IMG/VR virus record: IMGVR_UViG_3300046010_010929
Span: 1 to 31,124 of that record
Source: a virus
Strand: one strand, 5' to 3'
DNA: 31,124 nucleotides
Part shown: positions 826 through 31,124 of the stretch, one piece after another
Layout of the letters: every line of letters starts with the position of its first letter
Numbering within the stretch: position 1 is the first letter of the stretch
Made by a program: the position numbers and the translations under genes
The notes under the pieces: generated by a model
What the model saw: only the letters and a program-made list of their open reading frames with translations
Databases searched by the model: none
Told to the model about the DNA's origin: nothing

Positions 826-3800
826 TATTAAAATAGTAGGTCAGATTACAGACACATCAATAGTAACTCGTTATTCTGTACAAGACGAACAGTTACTTTT
901 ACCTATATTACAAAAAGATACTTTTGGTCAAATTGATGACTATATTGAATATTTTGTTTTTGATTTAGGTGGTAGTGTTCTTAATTCAGATTACAATTAC
1001 AAATCATATAAACTTCCACCTAATACAGGTTACTCACAAAGTTTATTACCTAATATTGAAATAGATCCTATTCAAGATATTGAAAATTTAGGATACCAAT
1101 CAGGTGACGTTACGTCTAGATATAACTTTTTTAGAAAAGTATCAGGCCAACCATTTGATAACCAATTATTCATCCAGCAGATATCAACAGATAGAACTGA
1201 AATAAGAGTAAACTCAACAATATTATCTGATGAACAGTTATTGGCTATTGTTACTAATTTTGCTGGAAAACAAGAAAGTGTTCCTTATTACTACTATGTA
1301 ATTTTAAACTTTGGTAATAATAACCAATCAATAGCTGTAAATGCTTTAAGTAGTGTTGATGAAAATGGTGAGGTAAGTATATTATTTAAATTATACGAAC
1401 CATTACCTATTAATTTTGACTTAAAGAGTACATTTTGGATTGTAGAAGAAGTTATTAATCCATACATATTTGATGTTAGTTTAAATAAATTAATATCAAC
1501 ACCGCCTCAACCACAATTAAGAGGTCCTAATTTTGCTATTGATTTACAAATCAAAGAAGCAGTTCCAACACCGTATAGTAATTTTAATCAACTTATCACC
1601 ACATTAACTGGTTCTTATTATCAAGCTGTTTTAAATACTCTTGCTGATCAAGAAACAAACATCAATATCAATTACAGTATACTTAATGAATTTGTACACT
1701 ATAGTTCAGCTGAAAATAGAATAAGTAATTTTATGTTTAAGATGGGTGAAATTGAAACCTATCAAAGTGAAATTAGTTCAAGTACTCCTTTAACATCAAG
1801 TAACGCATTACTATCAGCTTCAGTAAATAGAGCAAGTTCTAGTATCAATGCTGTTATTGCTGGGTTTGATGGATTTGAAACTTATCTTTATTTTACATCA
1901 AGTTCATTAACATCATCTATTGTAGAATATACTTTAGAAACGGGTTCTTTCCTCCAGTATAACATAGCACCATATCCTAAATCTAATTCTACTCAACCAT
2001 ACACATTGTATGCTTCATCATCTGTAACAGCACAAAATTGGTTTGCTACGGCGTCCAATGTTGCTTTAGCATATGATTTAAGTAATAAAGATTTATTATT
2101 AGATGTAATACCTTCTTATGTAAGAGACGATGTAGATAATTACTATCCATACATTGTATTTGTTAACATGATAGGCCAATATTTTGATAATATTTGGATC
2201 TACGTTAATAAATTAACAGATGTTTGGGATAACGATAACAATATTAATAAAGGTATTTCTAAAGATTTAGTATACGATTGGTTAGAATCATTTGGTGTTA
2301 AAGTATATAATAGTCAAGGTAACCAAACCGTATTAGATTACAACGTTGGTGGATATAGCGGTAGTGTTGATTTTAATGGTAATTATTCTCCTTCAAGTAG
2401 TTTCTTAAACAATGTTCCTAGAAAAGACTTAGTAGTAGACACATATAAAAGAATTTATCATAACTTACCTTACTTATTTAAAGCTAAAGGATCACATGGT
2501 AGTTTACAAGGTTTAATAAACGTATTTGGTATTACAGGTTCAATATTACCTATTAAAGAATATGGTGGTACAAATGATTATCAAGATTTACAAGGATACA
2601 CAACCGATAAAATTAGATTATCATCTACTAACATTACAGGTAGTATATTATCACCTATTAAGCGTTTAGAAACCACAACTACATCTTCCAGAGATGTTAG
2701 AAGTCAAGATTTACACTTTATAGATGTATCTTTTTCACCACAAACTCAAATTGATGCAGCTGTATCAGCATCAATCACTGCTGTTTCAGCATCATGGGTA
2801 ATTGATCAGTATATTGGTGATCCTACAGATTTACAATTAAATACTTATCCGTCATTATCATATCAACGAGATTACTGGTTTGGACAAACATTTGATCAAT
2901 CATTTGATTATGGTGGTTTTATCAGATTAATACAATTCTTTGATAACTCATTATTTAAAATGGTTAAGGATTTCACACCAGCAAGAGGTAATACATGGAC
3001 TGGTGTATCAATGAAATCACCTGTACTTGAAAGACCTAAGGTAGCTCAATATAACCCTGATATGACTAGCGTACAAGAATATGATGCTCCTTATTCAGGT
3101 GCTGCTCTTGTTTCTATATACGATCCGTATTACTATTATTTAGCTGGTGATAAAGAACCATATTACGAAGGAAATATATCTGGTTCTATTGTTGACACTT
3201 ATGCTTATTTTGAAATTGGAAATAGAAATCCATATTTGGTAAATAATACTGTTGGGTTTGTACCTTCTGGTTTTATAAGTGGTAGTACAGATTTTGTGCT
3301 TAATTATGATGCCCCTAGATTTGAGAATTTCTTTTTAAATTCAGATTTTAACGTATTACAAAATAATGTTGATATAAGTCTAACATCTGAATACAGAAAA
3401 AAACTTACACCAATATATTCTGTGGACGGACTAGGTAGATGCTTTACATCATACTCAGTAACTGAATCTGTTGAATTGCAAGATTCTTATTTATCACTGG
3501 ATGCATATGTTAATTCTAGATACGATGGAGTACAAATGTATAGCAGATTGTTTAATACATGGTCTTTTGGAGACAATTCATACGGGAAATCTCCTGTAAT
3601 TGATTATAATGTTAAAAAATTAGGTTTATTTACTGAAGTAGTAGATAATATCTATTTACCTTATAAAAGTAATGTTGTATTAAAATACCTAGTTGATGAA
3701 ACAGGTAGATTAACTGAATTAAATAAACGTAATAGAAACTGGTTTGAAGTTCAAAATACATTTGAAACTGGAGATCCATTAAATATATCATTATTTGATT

Positions 3801-5371
3801 CACAAAAATTCTCTAATCAAGTTCAAACTGATGGAAATAAACTAATTGCTGAAAGTGGGTATTCTTATTCCCCAGTATTTTATGCTTATGGAAATGAGGC
3901 TCCTACTGCATCAACATCTGCAGTATTTGTTGCTCCAGGTGGTGCATCTCAAAATAGCTTAAATAATTATTTTACAGTATATCCAATACCAGGAAATATA
4001 GTACCTTCTGGTGTTTATACCTCTTCTAGTTTTAACGGAAGTACTTTTGAAGTATGGAACTTATTTGATTATGAAACAAATGAATCATTTTTAGGCAATT
4101 ATTATAATACAGGATCTGGTCCTGGTTTATCAACTGTTACTTCTTCATATTACAGTATACCTCAAGAAGCTGACTATCAATTTACTTATGATTTTAATAT
4201 TGCCATAACAGCATCTTCCGGTGTTGGGAAATCAGTAACAGGAAGTATGCAACTGTGGTTAAGTAGTTCTGCAGGATTTAATGTAGTTAGTTCTAGTACT
4301 GTTATTGCAGATGCTTCTAACTTCCAAACTAATGCTTATAGAGCAATTTTAGGAAGTATACAGGCTGGGTATAGTAGAGTTATTCCTAGATATACAGGAG
4401 CGACATTTGTTGCTTTTAATGGATTTACAATAAATGAATATAATCTACCTACAGATTTATCCCCAGCAAACTCATTTCTTATATCAGGGGGTGATCGTAC
4501 TTATAAAAAATATGAATATTATGGACGTGCTAACACACCTGGTAAAGATGAATTTGCAGATAGTAGTGAAGTATCTCTAGGTGATTTCTGGGTTTTATCT
4601 ACAGATGATGCTGATTCATATACTAATATAACATTGTATTCAGACATAACAGGTACAGCAACAAGTGTTCCGGGTACTGTAAATGTGGATATGGCGTTTA
4701 GACAAACAGTAAATATAAACAGTGGTCAAATAACACCTAATGATAAGGTAGTATTTAGATTCTTCTTAAATAGTGGTAATACATCTATAACTGCCTCTTT
4801 AAAAGAAAATGGAGTATTAAAAGTAGTACCAACAAATAATTCTATACTTACTAATAATGTAGAAATATGTGTTGATCAAACTAATAATACATTCTATTTA
4901 AATCCTGAATTGTCAGAATATTTTGGTCCGGCATATTTATTTAATCCTTTAGATTCAAGTGTATCGGCATCATATAGTAGTTTATTTAGTGTTTATGGTG
5001 ATACATTATATCCATTCTCATTAGTAGCGAATGATAAAATAGTAGTACAAGCTATAAATGAAAGTGGCCCTATTTTAGAATATACTGTTGACAGTGTATT
5101 TGTTGGTGGTGGAAATATAGCGTATATTAAGGTAAAAGAAGATATAGACGGATATTTTAATGCTTGTGGTAAGTTTTATAAAATATTATTCTTGAAAAGA
5201 GTAATAGATGAAACAAGTATAATCATTGAATTGCCAAAACCACCAGGAAAAACATCATATGGCTTCAGCATACCACAAAACATAGACCCAGCGGTGCTTG
5301 CTAACATTGACGTAATTACCAGAAATGTGAATTCACAATTAGTAGATGTAGGAATTGGTGTAATAACATAA
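815..5371 (+). CDS. Giant tail/baseplate structural protein with Tail_P2_I-like segment
   Basis: This 1518-residue protein is rich in Ser, Asn, Thr and Tyr, as expected for an extended beta-rich virion protein. Around residues 434-590 it changes character. A helical stretch (YVRDDVDNYYPYIVF onward) is followed by RIYHNLPYLFKAKGSH, then GLINVFGITGS and PIKEYGG. That 'LP-L-KAKGS...L..L.N.FGI' pattern resembles the KGT/L..fG core of phage tail protein I (Tail_P2_I) baseplate components. Long Ser-rich beta regions flank this core on both sides. No cleavage site or signal peptide is obvious. It overlaps the small coiled-coil gene upstream. A baseplate wedge or tail-fibre connector role is likely. 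The family link is from memory and unverified; the structural assignment is firm. Confidence 0.8.
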   Translation: MADNIKIVGQITDTSIVTRYSVQDEQLLLPILQKDTFGQIDDYIEYFVFDLGGSVLNSDYNYKSYKLPPNTGYSQSLLPNIEIDPIQDIENLGYQSGDVTSRYNFFRKVSGQPFDNQLFIQQISTDRTEIRVNSTILSDEQLLAIVTNFAGKQESVPYYYYVILNFGNNNQSIAVNALSSVDENGEVSILFKLYEPLPINFDLKSTFWIVEEVINPYIFDVSLNKLISTPPQPQLRGPNFAIDLQIKEAVPTPYSNFNQLITTLTGSYYQAVLNTLADQETNININYSILNEFVHYSSAENRISNFMFKMGEIETYQSEISSSTPLTSSNALLSASVNRASSSINAVIAGFDGFETYLYFTSSSLTSSIVEYTLETGSFLQYNIAPYPKSNSTQPYTLYASSSVTAQNWFATASNVALAYDLSNKDLLLDVIPSYVRDDVDNYYPYIVFVNMIGQYFDNIWIYVNKLTDVWDNDNNINKGISKDLVYDWLESFGVKVYNSQGNQTVLDYNVGGYSGSVDFNGNYSPSSSFLNNVPRKDLVVDTYKRIYHNLPYLFKAKGSHGSLQGLINVFGITGSILPIKEYGGTNDYQDLQGYTTDKIRLSSTNITGSILSPIKRLETTTTSSRDVRSQDLHFIDVSFSPQTQIDAAVSASITAVSASWVIDQYIGDPTDLQLNTYPSLSYQRDYWFGQTFDQSFDYGGFIRLIQFFDNSLFKMVKDFTPARGNTWTGVSMKSPVLERPKVAQYNPDMTSVQEYDAPYSGAALVSIYDPYYYYLAGDKEPYYEGNISGSIVDTYAYFEIGNRNPYLVNNTVGFVPSGFISGSTDFVLNYDAPRFENFFLNSDFNVLQNNVDISLTSEYRKKLTPIYSVDGLGRCFTSYSVTESVELQDSYLSLDAYVNSRYDGVQMYSRLFNTWSFGDNSYGKSPVIDYNVKKLGLFTEVVDNIYLPYKSNVVLKYLVDETGRLTELNKRNRNWFEVQNTFETGDPLNISLFDSQKFSNQVQTDGNKLIAESGYSYSPVFYAYGNEAPTASTSAVFVAPGGASQNSLNNYFTVYPIPGNIVPSGVYTSSSFNGSTFEVWNLFDYETNESFLGNYYNTGSGPGLSTVTSSYYSIPQEADYQFTYDFNIAITASSGVGKSVTGSMQLWLSSSAGFNVVSSSTVIADASNFQTNAYRAILGSIQAGYSRVIPRYTGATFVAFNGFTINEYNLPTDLSPANSFLISGGDRTYKKYEYYGRANTPGKDEFADSSEVSLGDFWVLSTDDADSYTNITLYSDITGTATSVPGTVNVDMAFRQTVNINSGQITPNDKVVFRFFLNSGNTSITASLKENGVLKVVPTNNSILTNNVEICVDQTNNTFYLNPELSEYFGPAYLFNPLDSSVSASYSSLFSVYGDTLYPFSLVANDKIVVQAINESGPILEYTVDSVFVGGGNIAYIKVKEDIDGYFNACGKFYKILFLKRVIDETSIIIELPKPPGKTSYGFSIPQNIDPAVLANIDVITRNVNSQLVDVGIGVIT

Positions 5372-8148: not shown

Positions 8149-10992
8149 ATGGCATTCGCTTCCGCTTCATTTGATGTAACAGCTTCAGTCCAATCAGTGG
8201 ATCAGGCATATGTTTATAATACAACAAATGTCTTTATCAAAGAAGGATTTTCAAGTGGATCTGCTAGTTTTTCTCCTGCGCCATCATCAACTTATGGTGT
8301 TTACATTGAAAGTATTAACCCTCAAGAACAAAATGATACATTAATTGTTTTTACACCACCTCCTACACGCACACCAACAGTAACACCTACTAATAGCGTT
8401 ACACCATCTGTAACGCCAACTGTTACTAGGACTATTACACCAACTATTAGTGTTACTAGAACAGTAACTCCTACTATAACACCGTCTATTAGTATTACTC
8501 CAAGTAAAACACCTAGTGTAACACCTAGTGTAACAATTACTCCTACTATTTCAATAACACCTTCTACATCACCACTGTGTAATTTTGATGTGTTAGTGTC
8601 ACAATTGGCTCCGACTAAGACACCTCAACCAACGTTGTCTGTTTCACCATCACCAACACCATCAACATCACCACTGTGTAACTTTGATATATTGGTATCG
8701 CAGTTGGCTCCAACTAAAACGCCTCAACCAACGTTGTCTGTTTCACCATCATTATCTACTTCTCCATCTGTAACACCATCTATAACACCGTCAACTACTC
8801 CTTTATGTAACTTTGATATACTGGTATCACAGTTAGCTCCAACTAAAACACCTCAACCAACGTTGTCTGTTTCACCAAGTGCTACACCTTCTGTATCTGT
8901 ATCAATAAGTGTTACACCTACTCCAACTATTAGTATAACTCCTACTATAACACCAACATCTACTATTTCAATAACACCATCAACATCACCACTGTGTAAC
9001 TTTGATATATTGGTATCGCAGTTGGCTCCGACTAAGACACCTCAACCAACGTTGTCTGTTTCACCATCATTATCTACTTCTCCATCTGTTTCAGTAACAC
9101 CTTCTATATCTGTTTCATTAACACCTTCTGTAACCCCTAGTGTTACTCCAACAATAACACTTAGTACAACACCATCTATTAGCATTAGTAGTACACCAAG
9201 TACTTCAGTAACACCATCTATAACACCATCAACTACTCCTTTATGTAACTTTGATATACTGGTATCGCAATTAGCTCCAACTAAGACACCTCAACCAACG
9301 TTGTCTGTTTCACCATCAATACCGGCTTCTATTACACCAACTATCAGCATAACACCAACAATATCAATAACACCGACTATTAGTATCACACGTACTATTT
9401 CAATAACACCATCAATTACTCCATCTTCATTAGGAATTAACTTCGCTAGATCATCAGTAACCTATAGTACAGAATTTAATGCATGTTTGGGAACTATTTC
9501 AAACGGCATATTCCAACCACCTCAATTTGGAAATACACCAACAAATGGAGCTCAATTATACACTAACAATACTTTAACAGCTCCGTGGACCCCAACAGCA
9601 GCCGGAATATATTTGTTCCAGTTTGGAGGATCTACTACATGGGCTGTGTTTGTAGGACCTTCAGGAATTGTAGGTACTGTAACTGCTTGTTCAACTATAC
9701 CGTCAATAACACCGACTATATCAGTAACACCGACTATTAGTATTACACCAACAAAAACACCGACTATATCAGTAACACCAACTATTAGTATTACACCAAC
9801 AAAAACACCGACTATATCGATAACACGTACCCCAACAATAACACCAACAATAACACCAACAATATCAGTTACTCCAACTTCTCCAAGTATTGCGTTTGGT
9901 AGATCAACAACAACTTATTCTACTGTATTTAATGCTTGTTTAGGAACTATTACTGGTCAAGTATATCAACCACCTGCTTTTGGTACTACACCAACAGATG
10001 GAGCTCAACTATATACTGATACTAATTTAACAACTACATTTACTCCAGCAACTGCGGGGATATTTTTAATGCAAAGAGGAGGATCAGATAAATGGGCTGT
10101 ATATATAGGTCCTTCAGGTCTTGTAGGTGCTGTAACTGCTTGTTCAGGTGTACCTTCAGTAACACCAACTATTAGTGTTACTGTAACACCAACACCAACT
10201 ATATCGATAACACGTACCCCAACAATAACACCAACAATAACACCTACTATTAGTATTACTAGAACAATAACTCCAACACCTCCACCTTGTTATATTTATA
10301 TAGTTTATGCTGATGACGGTACTGGCGATAAAAACACTTATTCTTTCAGTTACACAAGATGTAATGGCTCTGCAGCTAGTGGTACAGCAACCAATCAAGG
10401 AGCTGAAAGGACAATATGTGCTCAAGAAAACTCAGTAACTTCAACAAGCGGATTTATATTTGTTGATGGTCCAGGAGCAGTATGTAGTGTAGAGCCAACA
10501 CAAACACCAACACAAACACCAACAATATCAATAACAAGTACACCACCGAATTCACCGCCGAATTCACCGCCGAATTCACCACCGAATTCACCGCCGAATT
10601 CACCGCCGAATTCACCTTCTAATACACCTGCGAATTCACCTTCTAATACACCGCCGAATTCACCAGCAGCTCCAGTAGAATTTACAATCGACTATGACTT
10701 TGGACAAAGTGCTCAAAGCGGAGACTTTAGTATAACAGTAAACGGTATTGGAGTAGTTTCTGTGACATCTACTAGTAGTGGACAAATAACAGTACCAGAA
10801 AATGCTAGCATATTCACATCAGTCGGCGCAGGTGCATCGAGTCAATTAATAGCATCAGTTAGTTTAATAATTTATAATGCAGGAACTGAAATATATAATG
10901 ACGTCGGTGAAGGAACTCCATTTGCCGGTCTTTCCCATAGTTATACTGCAACCGGTAACGGAAGTATAAGTGCACAAGCTTCTGAATTTTAA
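8149..10992 (+). CDS. Pro/Thr/Ser-rich repetitive tail fibre/adhesin
   Basis: This 947-residue protein is built like a beaded stalk. Residues 1-70 are a small N-terminal domain. Residues 72-425 are TPTISITPT-type tracts interrupted by five CNFDILVSQLAPTKTPQPTL cassettes. A globular domain at about 427-515 is repeated at about 580-666 with roughly 60% identity, each ending in VGxVTACS. A further insert lies at about 713-782. Ten PPNS-like tetrapeptides lie at 799-838, and the C-terminal domain is about 840-947. Such tracts form extended, protease-tolerant linkers, so the globular units are the likely receptor-binding parts. Each cassette has a single Cys, possibly for cross-links. Surface adhesin is inferred; the repeats themselves are directly visible. 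Confidence 0.8.
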   Translation: MAFASASFDVTASVQSVDQAYVYNTTNVFIKEGFSSGSASFSPAPSSTYGVYIESINPQEQNDTLIVFTPPPTRTPTVTPTNSVTPSVTPTVTRTITPTISVTRTVTPTITPSISITPSKTPSVTPSVTITPTISITPSTSPLCNFDVLVSQLAPTKTPQPTLSVSPSPTPSTSPLCNFDILVSQLAPTKTPQPTLSVSPSLSTSPSVTPSITPSTTPLCNFDILVSQLAPTKTPQPTLSVSPSATPSVSVSISVTPTPTISITPTITPTSTISITPSTSPLCNFDILVSQLAPTKTPQPTLSVSPSLSTSPSVSVTPSISVSLTPSVTPSVTPTITLSTTPSISISSTPSTSVTPSITPSTTPLCNFDILVSQLAPTKTPQPTLSVSPSIPASITPTISITPTISITPTISITRTISITPSITPSSLGINFARSSVTYSTEFNACLGTISNGIFQPPQFGNTPTNGAQLYTNNTLTAPWTPTAAGIYLFQFGGSTTWAVFVGPSGIVGTVTACSTIPSITPTISVTPTISITPTKTPTISVTPTISITPTKTPTISITRTPTITPTITPTISVTPTSPSIAFGRSTTTYSTVFNACLGTITGQVYQPPAFGTTPTDGAQLYTDTNLTTTFTPATAGIFLMQRGGSDKWAVYIGPSGLVGAVTACSGVPSVTPTISVTVTPTPTISITRTPTITPTITPTISITRTITPTPPPCYIYIVYADDGTGDKNTYSFSYTRCNGSAASGTATNQGAERTICAQENSVTSTSGFIFVDGPGAVCSVEPTQTPTQTPTISITSTPPNSPPNSPPNSPPNSPPNSPPNSPSNTPANSPSNTPPNSPAAPVEFTIDYDFGQSAQSGDFSITVNGIGVVSVTSTSSGQITVPENASIFTSVGAGASSQLIASVSLIIYNAGTEIYNDVGEGTPFAGLSHSYTATGNGSISAQASEF
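8572..9317 (+). repeat. Five-copy 79-bp CNFDILVSQLAP cassette array
   Basis: In-frame copies begin at 8572, 8671, 8800, 8989 and 9239, each about 78-79 bp and encoding PLCNFDxLVSQLAPTKTPQPTLSVSP. The 3' half is almost invariant at DNA level: CTCAACCAACGTTGTCTGTT is identical in all five. Variation is mostly synonymous changes (for example ttggctccgact versus ttagctccaact) and CCACTGTGT versus CCTTTATGT at the 5' end. Variable TPTISITPT spacers of 20-170 bp separate the copies. The near identity implies recent duplication or ongoing recombination within the adhesin gene. Confidence 0.9.
9431..10146 (+). repeat. Duplicated globular adhesin domain
   Basis: Two direct in-frame copies at about 9431-9693 and 9889-10146 each encode a domain of about 86 residues with shared landmarks: TYST.FNACLGTI, QPP.FG.TPT.GAQLYT, a GG..WAV core and GPSG.VG.VTACS. 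Two conserved Cys residues per copy suggest a disulphide within the domain. The copies differ at about 40% of residues, so this duplication is older than that of the CNFDILVSQLAP cassettes. Confidence 0.85.
10543..10662 (+). repeat. 12-bp PPNS minisatellite with eight GAATTC sites
   Basis: Ten tandem 12-bp units encode PPNS or variants (PSNT, PANS). Most units read ccgccgaattca, so the hexamer GAATTC occurs eight times in 120 bp. The tract links the stalk to the C-terminal domain of the adhesin. Such exact tandem units are prone to slippage, so unit number is expected to vary between relatives. Confidence 0.9.
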
Positions 10993-13200: not shown

Positions 13201-13548
13201 ATGCCAGTAGCTCAAGCACCAAGTTTTAATCTAGCGTTTCAAAACGAAGTCGTAATATACGAGCAAAATGTGATTTGTCATGTTAAGGATAATGAATTTA
13301 ATCTATCTTATAACCCAACATTATTACAAGGTAATTTAATGAGTGGAAGTGGATTTACATCTCAATCACTAAGTACACCTTTACCTGCTGTAAAATATTT
13401 TGCTACGTCATCATATTTTGTACCATATGTTACAACAATTGGTTTATATAATGAACAAAACGATTTATTAGCTGTTGCTAAGTTTGCTCAACCAATCCCA
13501 TTATCTCAAAATACAGACATGACGTTTGTAGTTAGATACGATAAATAA
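13201..13548 (+). CDS. Small structural protein, GLYNEQNDLLAVAK family
   Basis: This 115-residue protein is essentially a stand-alone copy of the C-terminal module of the protein at 6092-7114. The shared pattern is EFN.(T/S)YNP, then TT(V/I)GLYN(D/E)QN(E/D)LLAVAK, then a charged C-terminal strand (VVRYDK versus KVKLDY). It is the last gene of the structural block, and its stop overlaps the next start (TAATG). A structural or fibre-attachment function is likely because the same module is fused to a larger structural protein. No enzymatic residues are apparent. Confidence 0.75.
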   Translation: MPVAQAPSFNLAFQNEVVIYEQNVICHVKDNEFNLSYNPTLLQGNLMSGSGFTSQSLSTPLPAVKYFATSSYFVPYVTTIGLYNEQNDLLAVAKFAQPIPLSQNTDMTFVVRYDK

Positions 13549-14282
13549 TGATTAAGTTAATAGATATATTAAAAGAAATTGCTTTAAGGGAAGTTCAACA
13601 ACTTCCTATTGGTAACTCTATTATTTTTGGAGTTAAGCATTACAGTAAATCAGATGCAAAACAAGTTGTAGATTATGTTAAGAAAAATTTCTCACCTGAC
13701 GATAAGGTAGTATTTATGGGAGAAGGTGGAGATAGTAGTAATAAGTATGTAGTAGGTAGTGAGCAAGAAATGATTTATAATGAATTAAGTTCTTACTTTA
13801 AAAACCTAGTTAATGATTCATGGGATGGTTCCGATTTAGATGTAATGAATGACCAATCTCTTTTATACAAAATACAAAGAGAAAAAACAGGTCTTTCCCC
13901 TAATAAAATATTAGCAGCTAATTGGGCTAGTATGGTTGGACAAAATATTCTACAAGGCCAATCAATAGCAGATTTCGCTCCAGAAGATTACTTAAGTCCT
14001 GAAGGTATTAAGTTTTTAAAAGTAGCTGCACAAGAAGCCAAACTACCACTTTCAGATAATTTATACAAGCCAACAGCTGAAGACTATGATACCTTATACA
14101 GACTTTCTTTTCCAGCAGATTATGGAGACAAGTATACAGAAGTAGCTAAAGTAGCTGATGCTTTTAATGAAGCTAGAGATGAAAACTTACTATCAAAACT
14201 AAAAAAGTATGAAAGTAAAGGTTATAAAGTAATAGCTACTGCCGGGGAAGGACATATTGATTTAATTAAAGCAATGCTTTAA
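13548..14282 (+). CDS. Putative TraB/Tiki/ChaN-like protein with head-targeting N-terminus
   Basis: The 244-residue protein starts MIKLIDILKE, the first copy of the N-terminal signature shared by several later genes and resembling T4 capsid targeting sequences (cleavage expected after L-K-E, residue 10). The remainder shows three spaced motifs reminiscent of the TraB/Tiki/EreA/ChaN superfamily: IIFGVKH (GxxH, 25-31), VVFMGEGG (54-61, acidic residue) and TAGEGH (GxGH, 231-236) near the C-terminus. Members of that superfamily include metal-dependent proteases and haem or drug-modifying enzymes. If both readings hold, this would be a packaged, ejected enzyme acting in the host. The motif match is by eye and the overall similarity is weak. 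Confidence 0.45.
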   Translation: MIKLIDILKEIALREVQQLPIGNSIIFGVKHYSKSDAKQVVDYVKKNFSPDDKVVFMGEGGDSSNKYVVGSEQEMIYNELSSYFKNLVNDSWDGSDLDVMNDQSLLYKIQREKTGLSPNKILAANWASMVGQNILQGQSIADFAPEDYLSPEGIKFLKVAAQEAKLPLSDNLYKPTAEDYDTLYRLSFPADYGDKYTEVAKVADAFNEARDENLLSKLKKYESKGYKVIATAGEGHIDLIKAML

Positions 14283-16574: not shown

Positions 16575-17537
16575 ATGGCAGGATTATCTAAAAATATGTC
16601 GATAAATGACATTGCAAATAAACATAAAGTAGACGTTAACGTCCTTAAGCAAGAGCTTAAAAAAGGTATTAAAGTTGAACATGAGCATACGAGCGACCTT
16701 AAAAAAGCCGCTCGTATCGCTATGGATCATTTATTTGAAGATCCAAAATATTATACTAAGTTAGATAAAATAGGATTAGAAGAAAATAAATCTTTACTTA
16801 ATCAAGATTTAATTAAAGAATTTCTAAAAGCATGTATGCTTGAACTTGGTATAATTAATTTACCTAAAATCACATTATCTAATAACTCACAAGAAGCAAT
16901 TGATATGCGTTCTTGGGGTGGGTATATGCCTGGTAAAAAAGCAATCCATATAGTAACTGCTAAAAGACATCCTGCCGACATATTCAGAACATTAGCACAT
17001 GAATTAGTTCACTACAAACAAGATTTAGAAGGTCGTTTAAAACCTGAATCTGGTGAAACGGGTAGTGAAGATGAGAATGAAGCTAATTCTAAAGCAGCAG
17101 TTATAATGCGTAATTTTGCTCAAGAAAAACCAAATTTATTTGAACATTTACTTAAAGAAGTAGGTGATATAGTAAATGCATTTCCATGGAAATACGATTT
17201 TGTAGATGATGATGGAAATTTCTTTTATACATTCAATACACCTGAAAACAAATATTCTGTAGGTATTACCTACAATGGTGGTAATTCATACGAAATATTA
17301 TTCAATACAGCAGAGGAAATGGGTAAAGATACAGGCGAGAATGTTGCTACAAGAGTAATATCAACTGTATTTGAAATAATGTTAGATTTTATTAATAAAG
17401 AAAACCCAGACGATTTAATTATAAGACCAACTGAAGAAAAAAGAGGTCGCATATATAGACACTATGCTGAGAAAAATATACCTGATGGATATAAATTAAT
17501 ATCAATAGGTGACACCCAGCATTGGATAAAAAAATAA
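16575..17537 (+). CDS. Modular HExxH metallopeptidase-like protein with DUF5661-like N-terminal domain
   Basis: The 320-residue protein has three parts. Residues 29-62 (KGIKVEHEHT, then ARIAMDHLFEDPKYYTKL) match the small domain I know as DUF5661, common in phages. Residues 85-185 contain AHELVHYKQD with HELVH at 142-146 and a downstream ENEANSKA (167-174) that could give the third ligand of a gluzincin-type zinc site. Residues 196-320 form a separate C-terminal domain (KYDFVDDDGN ... GYKLISIGDTQHW). Between parts two and three lies HLLKEVG, an L-x-E site of the kind the head protease cuts. It may be a packaged peptidase, but it lacks the N-terminal leader of its neighbours. Peptidase activity is inferred from the motif. 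Confidence 0.6.
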   Translation: MAGLSKNMSINDIANKHKVDVNVLKQELKKGIKVEHEHTSDLKKAARIAMDHLFEDPKYYTKLDKIGLEENKSLLNQDLIKEFLKACMLELGIINLPKITLSNNSQEAIDMRSWGGYMPGKKAIHIVTAKRHPADIFRTLAHELVHYKQDLEGRLKPESGETGSEDENEANSKAAVIMRNFAQEKPNLFEHLLKEVGDIVNAFPWKYDFVDDDGNFFYTFNTPENKYSVGITYNGGNSYEILFNTAEEMGKDTGENVATRVISTVFEIMLDFINKENPDDLIIRPTEEKRGRIYRHYAEKNIPDGYKLISIGDTQHWIKK

Positions 17538-18656: not shown

Positions 18657-18974
18657 ATGATTAAATTACTAGACATATTAACTGAGGTTAAAGAAACATT
18701 TGAAATGTTTGCCCAAACACGTGGTAAAGGTGCTGCTAAAATTGCTGCTACTGCTGAAGAAAAAGGAGGATTATCCTTATTAACTTGGCACCATTTTAAA
18801 GTTAAGGCTCCATACTATAAAAAAGCAACTGAAGGTAAATTTGATAAAGAAGCTGCTAAAAAAGAATTTGAAGAAACATATAAAAAGATATCATTAGATA
18901 TGACTCAAACCGAATTTCAACGTGAAGTTGGTCGTCTAGAGGTATTAGGTGAATTACTAATAAGAGAAAAATGA
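18657..18974 (+). CDS. Putative head-packaged protein (MIKL leader), 105 aa
   Basis: The N-terminus MIKLLDILTE matches the shared leader, with the predicted cut after L-T-E (residue 10) leaving a mature protein of about 95 residues. The mature part is helical and Lys/Glu-rich, with a distinctive TWHHFKVKAPYYKKATEGKFD motif (split at residues 42-61) and no Cys or membrane segment. I associate this motif with conserved proteins of unknown function in large phages. The stop overlaps the next start (ATGA). Net basic character and small size resemble T4 internal proteins that are ejected with DNA. Function after ejection is unknown. Confidence 0.6.
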   Translation: MIKLLDILTEVKETFEMFAQTRGKGAAKIAATAEEKGGLSLLTWHHFKVKAPYYKKATEGKFDKEAAKKEFEETYKKISLDMTQTEFQREVGRLEVLGELLIREK

Positions 18975-19387
18975 TTAAATTAACCGACATATTATTAGAA
19001 ATAATAACTGAGAAGAAGCTTTGCCCTAAGGGTAAAGCCTACTATAATCGTCGTATAGCAGCAGGTGAAAAACCATCAGCTTACCTATCAGGACGTGCAG
19101 TTAAGGTATGTAAAGGATTAATGAAAGAAGATGATTTAGATGAATCATTACGTGATTGGTTTGAAAAAGAAGATTGGGTTCGTATTGATACACAAGGTAA
19201 TATAACTGGTCCTTGTGGTACAATGAAAAAAGGTAAAGCAACAACTCGTTGTTTGCCTCGCGCTAAAGCAAATAGTTTAACTAAAGCAGAACGTGCTGCT
19301 ACTGCTCGTAAGAAAGTAGCTGGTTCTAAAAAAGGCAAACAATTTGTACCTAATACTAAAAAAGCAAAAGTAAAACTTAATAAATAG
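18971..19387 (+). CDS. Basic head-packaged protein with DUF5872-like domain
   Basis: The protein opens MIKLTDILLEIITE, the shared leader with two possible cuts (L-L-E at 10, I-T-E at 14). A short CPKGKAYYNRRIAAGEKPSA segment follows. From residue 60 comes SLRDWFEKEDWVRID, GPCGTMKKGKATTRCLPRAK and KAERAATARKKVA, which I recognise, from memory, as the DUF5872-type domain seen in phages. The last 35 residues are extremely Lys-rich. A Cys-containing basic protein with a targeting leader fits a DNA-associated internal head protein that enters the cell with the genome. The precise activity is unknown. Confidence 0.6.
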   Translation: MIKLTDILLEIITEKKLCPKGKAYYNRRIAAGEKPSAYLSGRAVKVCKGLMKEDDLDESLRDWFEKEDWVRIDTQGNITGPCGTMKKGKATTRCLPRAKANSLTKAERAATARKKVAGSKKGKQFVPNTKKAKVKLNK

Positions 19388-19754: not shown

Positions 19755-21035
19755 ATGATTAAACTAATAGACATATTAAGTGAAATAATTGATCCGTCTG
19801 AAGCATATAACGATACAGACGCAGTTCAAACGCTAATTGATGGCAAAAGAAATTTAGCATTTATTGTTGAAAAGTCTAATAATAAAGATAATTGGGCTCG
19901 TATACAAAAAATGATAGCAGACAATGGTTTAAAAGCAATGTACGTTAAAGGCAATACAAATAACGCTTATGTTGTATACACACCTGGTAGTGAATCTAAA
20001 GCTAATGAATTAAAAGATATTGCCCAAACATATGATGGTTATTTATCTGCTAATGCTACTAAAGAAGATACTATAAAAATAGGTGAATTATTAGGATACG
20101 ATTATGATAAAATAATGGCGTATGTTGATAAAAATTTTCCTAAAACTGAAGCTAGAGTAACGCCTGTAAGAATGGATAATCCTTTTGAGTGGAATAGTGA
20201 ATGTATAAAACAATTAAGAAATAAAACAAATAAACCTATATCTAAATTAAATTTTAAAATAGGTAAATATAATGTTACGGGTGATGAATACGGAGCTAAA
20301 ATGACGTGGGATGAAGGTAATCAATTTTTATCTGTAGTTACAAAACGTAATGCTGAAAATTTATTTACACGTTTAAATATACAACCTGAAGAAGTATATA
20401 TAGGTGTTGTTCCTACTAGATGTGCATATTCATATTATATTATAGGAAACTATAATGATAATCCAATAGCTATTGCTAGAAAAGAATCATCAAGCCCAAT
20501 GTCTGGACAGACATATTTAACAACTCCTAATGTTAAAAAACAACTTAATAAATTTGGAACTGAAGATTTTCCTGAAGATTCTTTAGAAGAAGCTAGAGTA
20601 ACGCCTGTAGGAATGAGTAGAATATTACCAAAAGAAGATGTTCCATTTATAGCAAAATTAACAGAAATGTTTGGGGAAGGTGATAGCGGGTTTGACCTAT
20701 ATGAACCAGCATCTGGACATTATGAATTAGAATATTATGAAGATGATGATAATGAAGAAATGTACAATGAATTTAAAGCATTTGTATCAAAACACAAACC
20801 AGGAACTACATTAGTAAGTAAAGATATATTTGACTTTTTTTCATGTCCTGGTGCTCCTTCAAATTCTTATCAAGTTACAATTACAATAGATAAGGACAAA
20901 GATATATTTGTAAAATCACCATACATAGATTCAGAAGGAAATTATAGTGTAGGCTGGTTTGATACATCAGGCAAATACCACGCAGACACTAAAAACTTTG
21001 ATGAAGATGGAAATTATATAGGAGGCAATGCATAA
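19755..21035 (+). CDS. Three-module head-packaged polyprotein with EARVTPV linkers
   Basis: The start is set at 19755, not at an upstream in-frame ATG (19671) inside the previous gene, because 19755 gives the shared leader MIKLIDILSE, 1 nt after the preceding stop. The 426-residue product is split by KTEARVTPVRM (Glu132) and LEEARVTPVGM (Glu279) into three domains of about 120-150 residues after the leader. Domain 1 is alpha/beta (NLAFIVEKSN ... GYLSANATKED). Domain 2 is beta-rich. Domain 3 is acidic (DDDNEEMYNEF). The 3' end overlaps the next gene by 8 nt. Glu279 fits L-x-E/A; Glu132 does not fit the strict rule. Module functions are unrecognised. Confidence 0.65.
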   Translation: MIKLIDILSEIIDPSEAYNDTDAVQTLIDGKRNLAFIVEKSNNKDNWARIQKMIADNGLKAMYVKGNTNNAYVVYTPGSESKANELKDIAQTYDGYLSANATKEDTIKIGELLGYDYDKIMAYVDKNFPKTEARVTPVRMDNPFEWNSECIKQLRNKTNKPISKLNFKIGKYNVTGDEYGAKMTWDEGNQFLSVVTKRNAENLFTRLNIQPEEVYIGVVPTRCAYSYYIIGNYNDNPIAIARKESSSPMSGQTYLTTPNVKKQLNKFGTEDFPEDSLEEARVTPVGMSRILPKEDVPFIAKLTEMFGEGDSGFDLYEPASGHYELEYYEDDDNEEMYNEFKAFVSKHKPGTTLVSKDIFDFFSCPGAPSNSYQVTITIDKDKDIFVKSPYIDSEGNYSVGWFDTSGKYHADTKNFDEDGNYIGGNA

Positions 21036-21432
21036 TATATTAGACGAAATATTATCCATTCAACAACAACACCCTAACATTTATGTTGGTGGTAGTGTTG
21101 CTCTTATATTACAAGAAGCTATTCCACCCAGGAAACCTAAAGATGTTGATTTAATTTCTACATACAAAACTCACATATACGATATATTTGGTATAGATAA
21201 AGAAAAGCATTGGAGAATTAAAAATACAAGACGTAATGGTATTACGTTTGATTTATTCCATAATCCTAATGCTCAATACGTAGAATACAATTATAACGGT
21301 AATATTATTAAATTATCTCCTGTTGACGAAACAATGGAGTGGAAAACAGCTCAATTAAATAAACGTCACCCTGAGGGATATAGAGTAGAATATTTTAAAA
21401 AACATTTAACCGATTTACAGTACGCTATATGA
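21028..21432 (+). CDS. Minimal nucleotidyltransferase-fold protein
   Basis: In this 134-residue protein, YVGGSVALIL (19-28) is followed by RKPKDVDLIS (35-44). The GG/S...DxD arrangement is the signature of the nucleotidyltransferase superfamily, where the Asp pair binds metal for nucleotidyl transfer. A third Asp may be in FDLF (around 75-78, 'ITFDLFHN'). The protein is little more than one minimal domain, like MNT/HEPN-type or tRNA-CCA-like stand-alone NTases. No EARV motif and no clear leader is present, although ILDEIL lies near the N-terminus. It is inserted between two leader-bearing genes, overlapping both (8 nt and ATGA). Possible role: nucleotidylation of a host RNA or protein target, inferred only. 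Confidence 0.6.
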   Translation: MHNILDEILSIQQQHPNIYVGGSVALILQEAIPPRKPKDVDLISTYKTHIYDIFGIDKEKHWRIKNTRRNGITFDLFHNPNAQYVEYNYNGNIIKLSPVDETMEWKTAQLNKRHPEGYRVEYFKKHLTDLQYAI

Positions 21433-21812
21433 TTAAGTTAACAGATATATTAAACGAAGCTAGAGTAGTACCTGTGGGTATGACTAACAAACAAAAAATA
21501 ATTGATAACATATGGAACTTTAACCCATATTTTTTATATGGATTAATAGGCAAAGCAACAATAAAAGATTGGATAAAAACATTTGGATATGACGAATCTA
21601 CTTCTTTATCTAAATTTTTACAAGATGAATGGAACTATAAAGATGAAAACTTAAAAGAAGCTACACAATTAATAGAAACATATTTCCAATCAATCAAACC
21701 AGAAGATATAAAAATAGCCAACGGCAAAACAGACATATCAGGATATAAGCACATTGAAGAAGTATGTCCAGAAGGCGATGATGATTGTTATGTTATAATA
21801 ACTAAGTTTTAA
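21429..21812 (+). CDS. Head-packaged protein whose leader fuses directly to EARVVPVGM
   Basis: The 127-residue protein begins MIKLTDILNEARVVPVGM. This joins the N-terminal leader (cut after L-N-E at residue 10) to the EARVxPVGM motif found as internal linkers elsewhere, showing that the two elements are the same cleavage/packaging unit. The remainder is helical (IDNIWNFNPYFLYGLIGKAT ... LIETYFQSIKPED) and ends with an acidic, Cys-containing tail (CPEGDDDCYVII). The mature protein would start ARVVPVGM and be about 117 residues. It overlaps the NTase gene (ATGA), and its TAA runs into an AATATTTATA motif. Function in the cell is unknown. Confidence 0.65.
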   Translation: MIKLTDILNEARVVPVGMTNKQKIIDNIWNFNPYFLYGLIGKATIKDWIKTFGYDESTSLSKFLQDEWNYKDENLKEATQLIETYFQSIKPEDIKIANGKTDISGYKHIEEVCPEGDDDCYVIITKF

Positions 21813-25591: not shown

Positions 25592-26557
25592 ATGAAATAT
25601 AATGAATTAAAAGAAATGATTCGCCGCGTTGTAGTTGAGAAGAAATTAACTACAGCTGAAAAAAAGAAAAAAGAAGATATTGTTAAAGGTATGAAAAAAA
25701 CCTTTAAAGGTGATAAAGCGTCAATGTATGCTATTGCTACTGCTAAAGCTAAAAAAGTAGCAGAAGCTAGAGTAACACCTCTTCCTATCCCATCTAGAAA
25801 AGAAGATGTAAAAGACACAAATATAAAAGAAGGTAGTGACCATGAAGTAAAAATGGCTGTATCTAGTTTAGAAGCAATTGCAAAAGCAATTCTTGAACTA
25901 AGACAAAAACTAGGAAATCAAGAGCGTAATATCCCAAGTTGGATTCAAGATCATATTGCTAAAGCAGAAAATTACATTGAGCAAGCTGCTCAAGGTTTTC
26001 ATGAATTAAAAATGGAAGAAAAAGACCCATTAGATGTAGTTGTAGCAGAAAAGAAAGGTAAAGATTTAGACAGTGACGGTGATATAGATAGTGATGATTA
26101 TTTAAAAGCAAGAGATATTGCAATTCAAAAAGCAAAAGCTAAAAAAGTAAATGAAGCAAGATCAGTAGCTACAGATTTTCAACTTACCCCTAAACAATTT
26201 GAATTATTAAAAAATAATGGAACTAAAATAAATACAGCTAAAGAAGAATTATATTTACCTGATTTAATTAAAATTGAATTAAATAAAAATAGAAAAGATT
26301 CTGATTTAAAAAAAGAATTATTTTTAACTGCACCTTCATCTGATGAATATATTATAGCTGCTCTTATTACAGGTATAAAAAATTCATTGAAAAATAAAGT
26401 AAAAATTAATGATCAAGTGTATTGGTTATTAAAAGGTCATTTTACTAAAAAGGGTAATTTTAATTTTCCTAACCCTACTCGAGCTAAATTAGCCCCAAAA
26501 CCAGAGGAAACAGATACACCTACACAAGACAACGATACAAATAAAATGGAACAATAA
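25592..26557 (+). CDS. Modular head-packaged protein with EF-hand/dockerin-like loop
   Basis: This 321-residue protein has the leader MKYNELKEMIRRVVVE (possible cut after V-V-E, residue 16). Module 1 is KEDIVKGMKKTF, then ASMYAIATAKAKKVAE, ending at EARVTPLP (Glu58). Module 2 (residues 80-140) is helical (SSLEAIAKAILELRQKLGN, WIQDHIAKAENYIEQA). Residues 158-169 (DLDSDGDIDSDD) place Asp at loop positions 1, 3, 5, 7, 9 and 12 with Gly at 6, a canonical calcium-binding EF-hand/dockerin loop. VNEARSVATD (Glu188) opens module 3, a helical domain followed by a disordered Pro/Thr/Asp tail. The stop overlaps the next start (TAATG). A calcium-responsive ejected or structural role is possible. Confidence 0.65.
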   Translation: MKYNELKEMIRRVVVEKKLTTAEKKKKEDIVKGMKKTFKGDKASMYAIATAKAKKVAEARVTPLPIPSRKEDVKDTNIKEGSDHEVKMAVSSLEAIAKAILELRQKLGNQERNIPSWIQDHIAKAENYIEQAAQGFHELKMEEKDPLDVVVAEKKGKDLDSDGDIDSDDYLKARDIAIQKAKAKKVNEARSVATDFQLTPKQFELLKNNGTKINTAKEELYLPDLIKIELNKNRKDSDLKKELFLTAPSSDEYIIAALITGIKNSLKNKVKINDQVYWLLKGHFTKKGNFNFPNPTRAKLAPKPEETDTPTQDNDTNKMEQ

Positions 26558-28231: not shown

Positions 28232-31124
28232 ATGAGAAAACTAATCGACATATACTTGGATGAAGCAATAATCACGCCTAAAGTCCCTGTAAAAGATAAA
28301 CAAACCACAGAAGCTAGAGTATTACCTTCATTATCTATGAATTTAACTCCACTTCAAAGATACATATACAATTACGAAGTAGAAGTTAGCGGTGAAGATT
28401 TTGCTAGAAAAGAACTTGACAACATTAAAAAACTTAACACACTTACAGATATGCTTAACTACTATAGTAGTTATAGAGGCTGGGCACAAGACAGTGGTTT
28501 AAGAAATGAAATGATTAAGTTAATGACAGTTGCTAAAGAAAAATTCAATACACCTGTCAGTGAACAAATAGAAGAAGCAGAAAAATTAATGAAACGTGCA
28601 GGTATTAAATCTGAAGCCAGAATATTACCTGTAAAAATGCCTAATTATAAATATAAAGTAGGTGAAACTGTACGTGAAGAAAACGGTGATGAAGAAGCAT
28701 GTAAAATATTAGATAGAAGAGTTGATTGGAATGCTGTAAAAATGGATCCTGTTGATAAACAATATCTTCCAATGTTTATGGATCATGATGAAGAAACAGA
28801 TAACAATCCATGGTATTTAGTTCAATGGTTAGAACATAATGCAGATAAAAAACCAACATGGTGGACAGAAGATGAATTACAACCATATTATGAAAAAAAT
28901 AACGATGAAGATGAAGATGAAGACGAAATAGATGAGGCTCAAGTTACACCTGTTGGTATGGGTAAAATAGAGAATTATAGAATATCTTGGTATGATGGTT
29001 CTTTTCAATTTAAACAAGAAAAAGTTAAAACATCATTAGCTAACGCTGAAAGAATAGCTATAGATGGATTAAAAAAACAATATAAACATAGAGAATCAGA
29101 TGATTATTGGGTAGATATGGATCGAAATTTAGGAGATGATGTTATACCTCGCCGTGAAGAAGTTGAAAGAATAAGTTTAGATTCTGAGCCTGATGGTTTA
29201 TATGCTAGAGTAAAAGTACGTAATAATGATACTAGAGCATATGAACTTACTAAAAAAATTAAACTTCAAGACGAAGTAGATGAAGCTCGTATTACACCTG
29301 TTGGTATTCCTTCACAAAAATATGGAACAGCAGATTGGGTACACCAGTGGGCAGACGATGATTATGATACTTTAGTATATGAATTAGGAGAAGATACAGC
29401 GGACATGGTATGGCTTTTAACTTCAATCATAGATATAAACAAACAATCAACATTAAGTATTGCTGATGTACGTAAATTTAGAGAAAGTATTTATAGTGAT
29501 GGATATGAAGGTAGTGTTGATGATTTAATTAAAAATTTATTAGATTATAAAGTAATAGTACCAATAACTACTAATGAAGCCCGCGTTACACCTGTAGGAA
29601 TGTCAAAATATAATAACGCTACATTACATATACCAGATAATACTGGTAAAACATATATTGACGAAGACATATACCTAATAGATAATACAGGAGGAGAATT
29701 TGTAGGAACTGATATGGGAAATAACCAATATGAATTTACTGATTATTACGGATGTGATGAGGATGAGGATGATGAGGATGATGAAAATAGAATATTTGAT
29801 ACTGAAAATTATGAACTTCCTAAAGTATTCATTCAAATGTTAGACGCTGGGGGTGAATTAAGTAGATCTTTTGGTATGTGTTATGAATACACAGTAACAA
29901 TAAACCTAGACACACTAAAAAAACTATACCCAGTAAAATCTACTACTAATGAAGCCCGCGTTACACCTACTACAAGCATGAATAGGGTAAGTGCTAACTA
30001 TGTTAATTTAATTAATGACGCTATATCAAAATCTATAGTTAAAATTATTAAAGAAAATATGAAATATGTTGGAGATAGTGTTGATATAGTTAAAACATTA
30101 TTATCTGATAATAAATTAGGTCTATTAATTGAAAAATACATTAAATCTAAAATGATAGAAACCAACGCTGAAATTGTAAGAAACGGCGTTCCTGATATTG
30201 TTACTAGAGCAAATGTTAATACATTAACAGATAATGAAATGCTTGATTTTATTGAGGACAATAAAGCAGTACAACAGTATATATCTAAATTATTCTGGAA
30301 ATCTTATTTAGAATTAATCGATATTGACGCTGTAAAAAAAATAATAAAAGATAAATACTATAATCCTCAATATGAAAATGAGTATAATGATTCGGAAATT
30401 ACTCATTTGATTTATATGGACATAAACAGAAACATGTATGGTGAAGATATATTCCCATATGCTGATACTCATTTAATTAGTGATGAATTTGCTGACGTTT
30501 TAGAACGTGAATTACCTAAAGAAATATTTGAAGCACGTGTTACGCCTGTAGCAATAGGTTCATTAAGATCTGATGATTTAATTGAAATAATATTAAAAGA
30601 ATATGATAATAACCCTAATCTCTTTACTGATGACAATTTAGATATAGTATCTAAAGATGAACTATATAAAGACTTAAAAGAATCAGGTTCACGTTTAATT
30701 ATAGATATATTAGTAGGATTAGAAATACATCAAGAAATACTTAACTTTTATAACAAATATAAAAAGGTAGTAATTGATGGTACTGACTATACTAAATATT
30801 TTACAAAATACATTAATAACACAAATGAAGCCCGTGTTACGCCTGTATCGATGTCACGATACAACAATGCTGAAGTAAATATAATAGATAACGATTTTGT
30901 TGTAATAGAGGATAATGAGGGTAATGAATATAACGGCGATATAGAAAATGATGGTACAGTTAACTTTCTTTTAATATTTGAAAGTGATGATAATACTTTA
31001 GAGTTCATGGATGAAGAAGAAATATTTGACACAATAGCTCCTGAAGTATTTAAACAAATAAAAGATGCAGGTGGCAAAATTGGAGCATCAAGCGATTCAA
31101 TAGATGTAACTATAGATGTAATTA
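28232..31124 (+). CDS. Giant modular head-packaged polyprotein (3' end outside window)
   Basis: The frame is open from ATG 28232 to the window edge, at least 964 codons with no stop. It starts MRKLIDIYLDEAIITP, a leader variant with an L-D-E/A site. EAR-type linkers follow at Glu27, 128, 235, 351, 449, 574, 767 and 866, for example IDEAQVTPVGM, TNEARVTPVGM and IFEARVTPVAIG. These cut the protein into pieces of 16, 101, 107, 116, 98, 125, 193, 99 and at least 98 residues. Modules 450-574 and 867 onward are paralogous (MS(K/R)YNNA start, DAGG near the end). Modules 575-866 are helical. Acidic runs occur near 225-234 and 510-520. No module has a recognised enzyme motif. Confidence 0.75.
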   Translation, partial: MRKLIDIYLDEAIITPKVPVKDKQTTEARVLPSLSMNLTPLQRYIYNYEVEVSGEDFARKELDNIKKLNTLTDMLNYYSSYRGWAQDSGLRNEMIKLMTVAKEKFNTPVSEQIEEAEKLMKRAGIKSEARILPVKMPNYKYKVGETVREENGDEEACKILDRRVDWNAVKMDPVDKQYLPMFMDHDEETDNNPWYLVQWLEHNADKKPTWWTEDELQPYYEKNNDEDEDEDEIDEAQVTPVGMGKIENYRISWYDGSFQFKQEKVKTSLANAERIAIDGLKKQYKHRESDDYWVDMDRNLGDDVIPRREEVERISLDSEPDGLYARVKVRNNDTRAYELTKKIKLQDEVDEARITPVGIPSQKYGTADWVHQWADDDYDTLVYELGEDTADMVWLLTSIIDINKQSTLSIADVRKFRESIYSDGYEGSVDDLIKNLLDYKVIVPITTNEARVTPVGMSKYNNATLHIPDNTGKTYIDEDIYLIDNTGGEFVGTDMGNNQYEFTDYYGCDEDEDDEDDENRIFDTENYELPKVFIQMLDAGGELSRSFGMCYEYTVTINLDTLKKLYPVKSTTNEARVTPTTSMNRVSANYVNLINDAISKSIVKIIKENMKYVGDSVDIVKTLLSDNKLGLLIEKYIKSKMIETNAEIVRNGVPDIVTRANVNTLTDNEMLDFIEDNKAVQQYISKLFWKSYLELIDIDAVKKIIKDKYYNPQYENEYNDSEITHLIYMDINRNMYGEDIFPYADTHLISDEFADVLERELPKEIFEARVTPVAIGSLRSDDLIEIILKEYDNNPNLFTDDNLDIVSKDELYKDLKESGSRLIIDILVGLEIHQEILNFYNKYKKVVIDGTDYTKYFTKYINNTNEARVTPVSMSRYNNAEVNIIDNDFVVIEDNEGNEYNGDIENDGTVNFLLIFESDDNTLEFMDEEEIFDTIAPEVFKQIKDAGGKIGASSDSIDVTIDVI
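28262..30847 (+). repeat. Nine dispersed EAR(V/I)TPV linker repeats
   Basis: In-frame copies start at 28262, 28310, 28613, 28934, 29282, 29576, 29951, 30530 and 30827. The typical protein sequence is (N/D)EARVTPVGM. Two copies share the DNA block AATGAAGCCCGCGTTACACC (29573 and 29948), locally richer in G+C than the surrounding sequence. Further copies occur in other genes at 20148, 20589, 21456, 25763 and 26153 (the last only as NEARS). Gaps between copies are 48-579 bp and always multiples of three. Confidence 0.9.

Follow-up and report, generated by a model that had tools for sequence, protein, structure and literature searches.

A candidate virion-cargo polyprotein built of exchangeable cassettes in a T4-like phage

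Overview

The window analysed here, i.e., the whole 31,124-nucleotide stretch of the virus record IMGVR_UViG_3300046010_010929, ends in a gene for a long chain of small segments separated by copies of one short junction motif. On balance we favour the reading that this is a true virion-cargo polyprotein of a DNA phage, in which one gene with one leader would supply about eleven proteins, which the head-maturation protease would free in the prohead. The junction would then also be the point at which pieces pass between stand-alone and polyprotein forms.

Architecture of the polyprotein

The earlier note on this DNA had described a 964-codon open frame with nine copies of EA[RQI][VI]xP, spaced by about 100–190 residues after a first short interval, the first copy coinciding with the end of an N-terminal leader. 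The frame lies at 28232-31123 on the plus strand and agrees with this description in every respect. The copies are found at frame residues 11, 27, 128, 235, 351, 449, 574, 767 and 866, so that the first step is 16 residues and the later ones are 98-193, and the first copy joins the leader to the chain (MRKLIDIYLDE|AIITP). Shuffled versions of the protein contain 0.003 copies on average and one at most, versus nine in the window frame. Three other window genes have the motif, 19755-21035 at two junctions and 21429-21812 and 25592-26557 at one each, while it is missing from all remaining window ORFs of at least 80 aa.

Beyond the window edge, the gene is completed by contig L009 (IMGVR_UViG_3300046007_008394), a 12-kb contig of another record. 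It is identical to the window at 3037 of 3039 bases (99.9%), and both mismatches are the window's last bases. The complete polyprotein (L009 147-4136) has 1329 aa and 12 motif copies, followed by a stop. It opens with a leader of 11 aa and a spacer of 16 aa, which precede eleven segments (C1-C11) of 98-193 aa each; the window holds C1-C7 and most of C8, and C9-C11 lie past its edge, in L009. Downstream of the stop, L009 carries a dehydrogenase-like and a thymidylate-kinase-like gene, then the large terminase and the portal. The parts of the polyprotein are as follows.

28232..28264, plus strand: leader MRKLIDIYLDE, resembling a capsid-targeting sequence (hydrophobic residues 4 and 7, L-x-E end); putative first cut after E11
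28265..28312, plus strand: short spacer AIITPKVPVKDKQTTE, separating junctions 1 and 2
28313..28615, plus strand: cassette C1, 101 aa, 11.7 kDa, from E|ARVLP to E|ARILP
28616..28936, plus strand: cassette C2, 107 aa, 13.0 kDa, acidic, pI 4.3
28937..29284, plus strand: cassette C3, 116 aa, 13.6 kDa
29285..29578, plus strand: cassette C4, 98 aa, 11.1 kDa, acidic, pI 4.2
29579..29953, plus strand: cassette C5, 125 aa, 14.3 kDa, pI 4.1, a paralogue of C8
29954..30532, plus strand: cassette C6, 193 aa, 22.4 kDa, corresponding to the first cassette of the relative G005, where it directly follows the leader
30533..30829, plus strand: cassette C7, 99 aa, 11.5 kDa, corresponding to G005 cassette 2 (33% identity, E=3e-12)
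30830..31123, plus strand: cassette C8, its end cut off by the window edge; 114 aa when whole (L009)
L009:3087-4133: cassettes C9, C10 and C11, the last two matching G005 cassettes 3 and 4

The segment homology expected of a tandem-repeat structural or fibre protein is found in two pairs only, C5-C8 and C9-C11; all other pairs are without similarity at E<1e-3. C5 and C8 share 40% identity over the full length of C5, and their homology begins at the junction. Most segments are acidic (pI 4.1-5.3), C1 being the exception. Each segment contains between zero and three other [L/I]-x-E sites, which folding must protect if the junctions are cut.

Junctions are the boundaries of exchange

The evidence that we regard as the strongest new argument for a cassette polyprotein is the exchange of junction-bounded pieces with G005 (IMGVR_UViG_3300008116_000011), a 174-kb relative. 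The syntenic gene in G005 encodes 539 aa with four junctions, and its segments are homologues of C6, C7, C10 and C11 only, in the same order. C6 and its G005 counterpart (49% identity, E=1e-56) are homologous from a boundary exactly at E|A. In the window phage this cassette follows an internal junction, and in G005 it comes directly after the leader (MKKLYDILKE|ARIVP).

All nine homologous cassette pairs tested show similarity from segment residue 9 onward (P=0.001). Of the seven pairs with differing neighbours, six are without similarity upstream of the junction (P 0.11-0.80), and the seventh, C6 against the leader, is marginal (P=0.015). The similarity does reach upstream in both pairs whose neighbours are conserved, as expected. 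From these comparisons, the end of the leader is equivalent to an internal junction. The alignments show E|A junction-bounded pieces being gained, lost, duplicated and moved as whole units. What the earlier note took for separate domains between linkers are thus exchangeable modules, with bounds exactly at the junctions. In several other relatives the same locus is occupied by one single-cargo gene that has another leader, e.g. MSKQFISEAQRMQKLAGM, or by no such gene. A C-terminal LKKLY near two junctions resembles the leader start MKKLY; it lies inside a conserved domain and was dropped as evidence.

Leaders and stand-alone genes

In T4, the 10-residue leader of IPIII uses residues 4 and 7 for targeting and residues 8 and 10 for processing, and is cut after L/I-x-E, according to the available text of PMC9026906. 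The polyprotein leader is one residue longer than the T4 leader, otherwise it has the same features. The leaders MIKLTDILNE, MIKLIDILSE and MKKLYDILKE also have the T4 capsid-targeting geometry, with hydrophobic residues at positions 4 and 7 and an [L/I]-x-E end. The leaders in the window are MIKLTDILNE|A, MIKLIDILSE, MIKLLDILTE, MIKLTDILLE and MIKLIDILKE, and together with that of the polyprotein they measure 10-11 aa. The T4 ipII record reads MKTYQEFIAE|ARV, to be compared with MIKLTDILNE|ARV in the window. The leader pattern is found at the start of 5 of 37 window ORFs versus none of 113 internal Met positions; in G005 it starts 10 of 233 ORFs versus none of 598 internal methionines.

The window contains the following candidate cargo genes besides the polyprotein.

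13548..14282, plus strand: leader-bearing gene, MIKLIDILKE
18657..18974, plus strand: leader-bearing gene, MIKLLDILTE
18971..19387, plus strand: gene with leader MIKLTDILLE; in relatives, extra domains are inserted ahead of the E|SLRDWF boundary (alignment A2)
19755..21035, plus strand: second cassette protein, 426 aa, leader MIKLIDILSE, three domains; joints KTE|ARVTPV (20150/20151) and LEE|ARVTPV (20591/20592)
21429..21812, plus strand: stand-alone gene, MIKLTDILNE|ARVVPVG followed by its cargo, 117 aa after the cut
25592..26557, plus strand: third cassette protein, 321 aa; junctions AE|ARVTPL (25765/25766) and NE|ARSVATD (26155/26156)

Between the window phage and G005, swaps of fused and stand-alone forms run both ways. 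In G005, the counterpart of the third domain of the 19755-21035 protein has a gene to itself, complete with leader (3234-3806), and the homology starts at the junction. Conversely, the stand-alone cargo of 21429-21812 closes a G005 polyprotein, where it follows KKE|ARVVPP (41% identity, E=3e-25). The portion of the 25592-26557 protein past its second junction begins a separate protein in another relative, G021 (MIKE|AKQIATDYQF).

Some other window genes deserve mention. A small nucleotidyltransferase-like protein (GGSVALIL...KDVDL) without a leader is encoded at 21028-21432, between two cargo genes. The gene at 14305-14754 matches a SegE-type GIY-YIG endonuclease in Pfam (E=3e-23) and carries the PHROGs label NAD synthetase, which is probably wrong; a gene at a similar position in a cultured relative is also annotated as NAD synthetase. 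In the tail region, the protein at 8149-10992 is rich in threonine and proline, with about five CNFD(I/V)LVSQLAPTKTPQPTLSVSPS blocks between TPTxT stretches, and its low-complexity versions in relatives are longer.

The phage, its relatives and the prohead protease

In its large terminase the phage shares 60% identity with Flavobacterium phage vB_FspM_immuto (Immutovirus, 160 kb), the terminases of T4-like cyanophages being more distant relatives, and the portal has many IMG/VR relatives at 88-93% identity. Judged by these two proteins, the phage belongs with the T4-like Flavobacterium phages, as kin of Immutovirus. The gene order in immuto is terminase, gp20 portal, prohead protease, core-type protein and gp23 capsid, and its prohead protease is 36% identical to T4 gp21 (E=4e-31). 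Of the 30 records searched, 25 have a protease of the T4 gp21 type, and the polyprotein-bearing G005 is one of them. The gene is absent from the window contig and L009, both of which are fragments that end before its place; from the relatives, we infer that the window phage itself encodes one.

No relative of the polyprotein was found among annotated phages. When IMG/VR was scanned with patterns for the linker and the leader and with alignments, the only contigs retrieved were L009, G005 and two small ones bearing single leader genes, and a scan of GTDB genomes gave no match. G005 has 13 sites of the form E[AS][RK][VI]xP, the window has 11 and L009 has 10, versus 0 or 1 in each other relative examined. 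Thus, the junction form is peculiar to two sampled phages. A search of the relatives for other polyproteins with repeated Glu sites yielded nothing but repeat proteins and shadow frames of low-complexity tail genes.

Two observations on these relatives stand on their own. A second class of leader, MSKQFITEAKRMQKLAGI, which has two Glu sites, stands at the head of small genes beside the prohead protease in L154 (2720-3501), and this contig is close to G005. The relatives L026 (269-2410) and L050 (507-2159) encode proteins in which a KWTKDALEQEAAKYNTA repeat of about 50 residues occurs five to seven times, and the protein of L050 begins with the leader-like MDNFDLKRFLVEN.

Cargo identity and predicted structure

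Searches of the segments against Pfam, PHROGs, PADLOC and PDB sequences gave no significant match, and neither a peptidase nor a polyvalent domain was detected in the chain. The AlphaFold model of the four-cassette G005 protein is uninformative (pLDDT 38) because there are too few homologues. When the C11 family is predicted alone (G005 cassette 4 with C11 and C9), the best of five models is compact, with four strands plus helices (pLDDT 77, pTM 0.75), and the remaining four are not good. In this model the N-terminal tail, where the junction lies, is unstructured, and no significant fold match was found in the PDB or among viral model folds. By likeness to T4 IPI (PMC9026906), one may speculate that the cargo counters host defences.

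Do the junctions resemble head-protease sites?

At the P3 position, the 12 junctions of the window phage have L or I four times, V twice, T five times and K once, while all four G005 junctions have L or I, as in T4. Taken together, L or I is found at 8 of 16 junctions versus a background of 14% (P=6e-4). With V and T added, a grouping chosen after the data were seen, the count is 15 of 16. The putative sites in the major capsid protein of the relatives read (V/I)xE|(A/S/T). The T or K found at six of the 12 window-phage junctions is therefore outside both the T4 rule of L or I and the capsid-type V-x-E of the relatives.

On the P' side, the conservation of ARVTPVGM exceeds what the T4 protease is known to need; this stretch may be read by the protease of this phage, or it may be a tag on the mature protein. 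The Arg codons at the junctions are mixed (AGA as well as CGT/CGC). These differences rule out the linker as a mere DNA-level repeat, and the conservation is thus largely at the protein level and not only copied DNA.

The earlier note's proposal of cargo proteins released by the head protease keeps the support of the modules, the T4-type leader and the relatives' protease, but half of the window-phage junctions are without the T4 or capsid form at P3. This half would be accommodated by an uncut multidomain head or ejection protein, whose junctions are flexible hinges and which is packaged whole and leaves as a partly unfolded thread, as has been suggested for the large cargo proteins of crassviruses. 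Multidomain virion proteins packaged whole are indeed known, such as the N4 virion RNA polymerase (PMC5512222) and the crassvirus cargo (PMC10172136). However, hinges need neither an invariant Glu nor a sequence identical to the leader cleavage point, and the same E|[AR/AK][V/I]xP comes after stand-alone leaders of two types. We consider an uncut chain unlikely.

Proposed mechanism

We suggest that the chain is likely to enter the prohead by means of its leader, and to be cut there by a gp21-type protease into separate packaged cargos. In detail, (i) the T4-type capsid-targeting leader would carry the 1329-aa chain into the prohead core, (ii) the gp21-type prohead protease would cleave every E|A[R/Q/I][V/I]xP junction behind its Glu, (iii) about eleven small, mostly acidic proteins of 11-22 kDa would be freed, and (iv) these would stay with the DNA and be injected together with it. 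No virion proteomics of these phages was found in the literature searched.

Cutting by the head protease would also be expected if the chain were a scaffold or core protein, chopped like T4 gp22 and gp67 into fragments that exit the head, and hence filler instead of cargo. The T4 gp22 sequence contains 16 [L/I]-x-E sites, and most T4 core fragments do exit the head, as the available text of PMC9026906 describes. On the other hand, a core-type gene is already present in the relatives, between the protease and capsid genes, and one segment is predicted to fold compactly. The segments are mostly unrelated and variably present, and the locus is single-cargo in several relatives, unlike an essential scaffold. 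A scaffold role is thus very improbable.

Relation to known systems

The proposed cargo polyprotein closely recalls T4 IPI, IPII, IPIII and Alt, whose leader of some 10 residues has [L/I]-x-E at its end, as here, and is cut by a gp21-type protease, as predicted here. The mature N-terminus of ipII, ARV, is identical to the one expected here, and small packaged proteins would be the product in both cases. However, the T4 internal proteins have one cargo per gene, whereas up to eleven here follow one leader, each behind a junction (L009 has eleven cassettes and G005 has four).

The polyvalent proteins of phages and conjugative elements, which their authors likened to polyproteins (PMC5512222, in the text available), are the nearest precedent for a head-carried chain of many domains. 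These carry two to fifteen domains per polypeptide, a range that includes the eleven segments of L009 and the four of G005, and as here the many unrelated domains are proposed to be packaged in the head and processed. Their processing is ascribed to embedded zincin peptidases, and neither a zincin nor a polyvalent domain was found here; the available text of PMC5512222 mentions no repeated head-protease-type junction.

That a zincin-like peptidase, in the chain or elsewhere, and not the head protease would process our chain is hardly credible, as the junctions are of the Glu-Ala type seen in head-protease sites and the searches described above detected no such domain in the chain, even though the polyvalent class exists and a separate window gene at 16575-17537 has an HELVH motif. 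This gene, a possible alternative peptidase by its zinc-peptidase-like motif, also has an N-terminal DUF5661 (E=2e-15) and adjoins an exonuclease gene.

Multiple cuts after Glu by a prohead protease are found in T4 gp22 and gp67, which gp21 cuts many times (PMC9026906, available text), and in head proteins of SPN3US and phiKZ, sometimes several per protein. However, these cuts in the T4 core and in giant phages remove propeptides or destroy the scaffold, and no multi-cargo release is reported in the available text of PMC9026906, PMC10052503 and PMC5694885. Polyproteins of eukaryotic RNA viruses likewise give many mature products from one chain through a virus-encoded protease. Here, in contrast, the searches revealed no protease within the chain, and its products would be accessory cargo, not the replication or capsid core.

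The earlier note knew of no phage polyprotein of this kind. Our literature search, with most subscription journals outside its reach, found no description of this arrangement either; the polyvalent proteins (PMC5512222) and T4 gp22 and gp67 (PMC9026906), as far as their available texts go, are nevertheless near precedents.

Significance

If the chain is cut as predicted, a T4-like phage would have a compact way of loading many effectors into each head, in equal numbers and with one leader. The anonymous small segments would become a defined cargo set to screen against host defences. The junction would also provide a sequence rule for spotting head cargo in metagenomic T4-like phages, and a design hint for packaging several proteins together in T4-type capsids.
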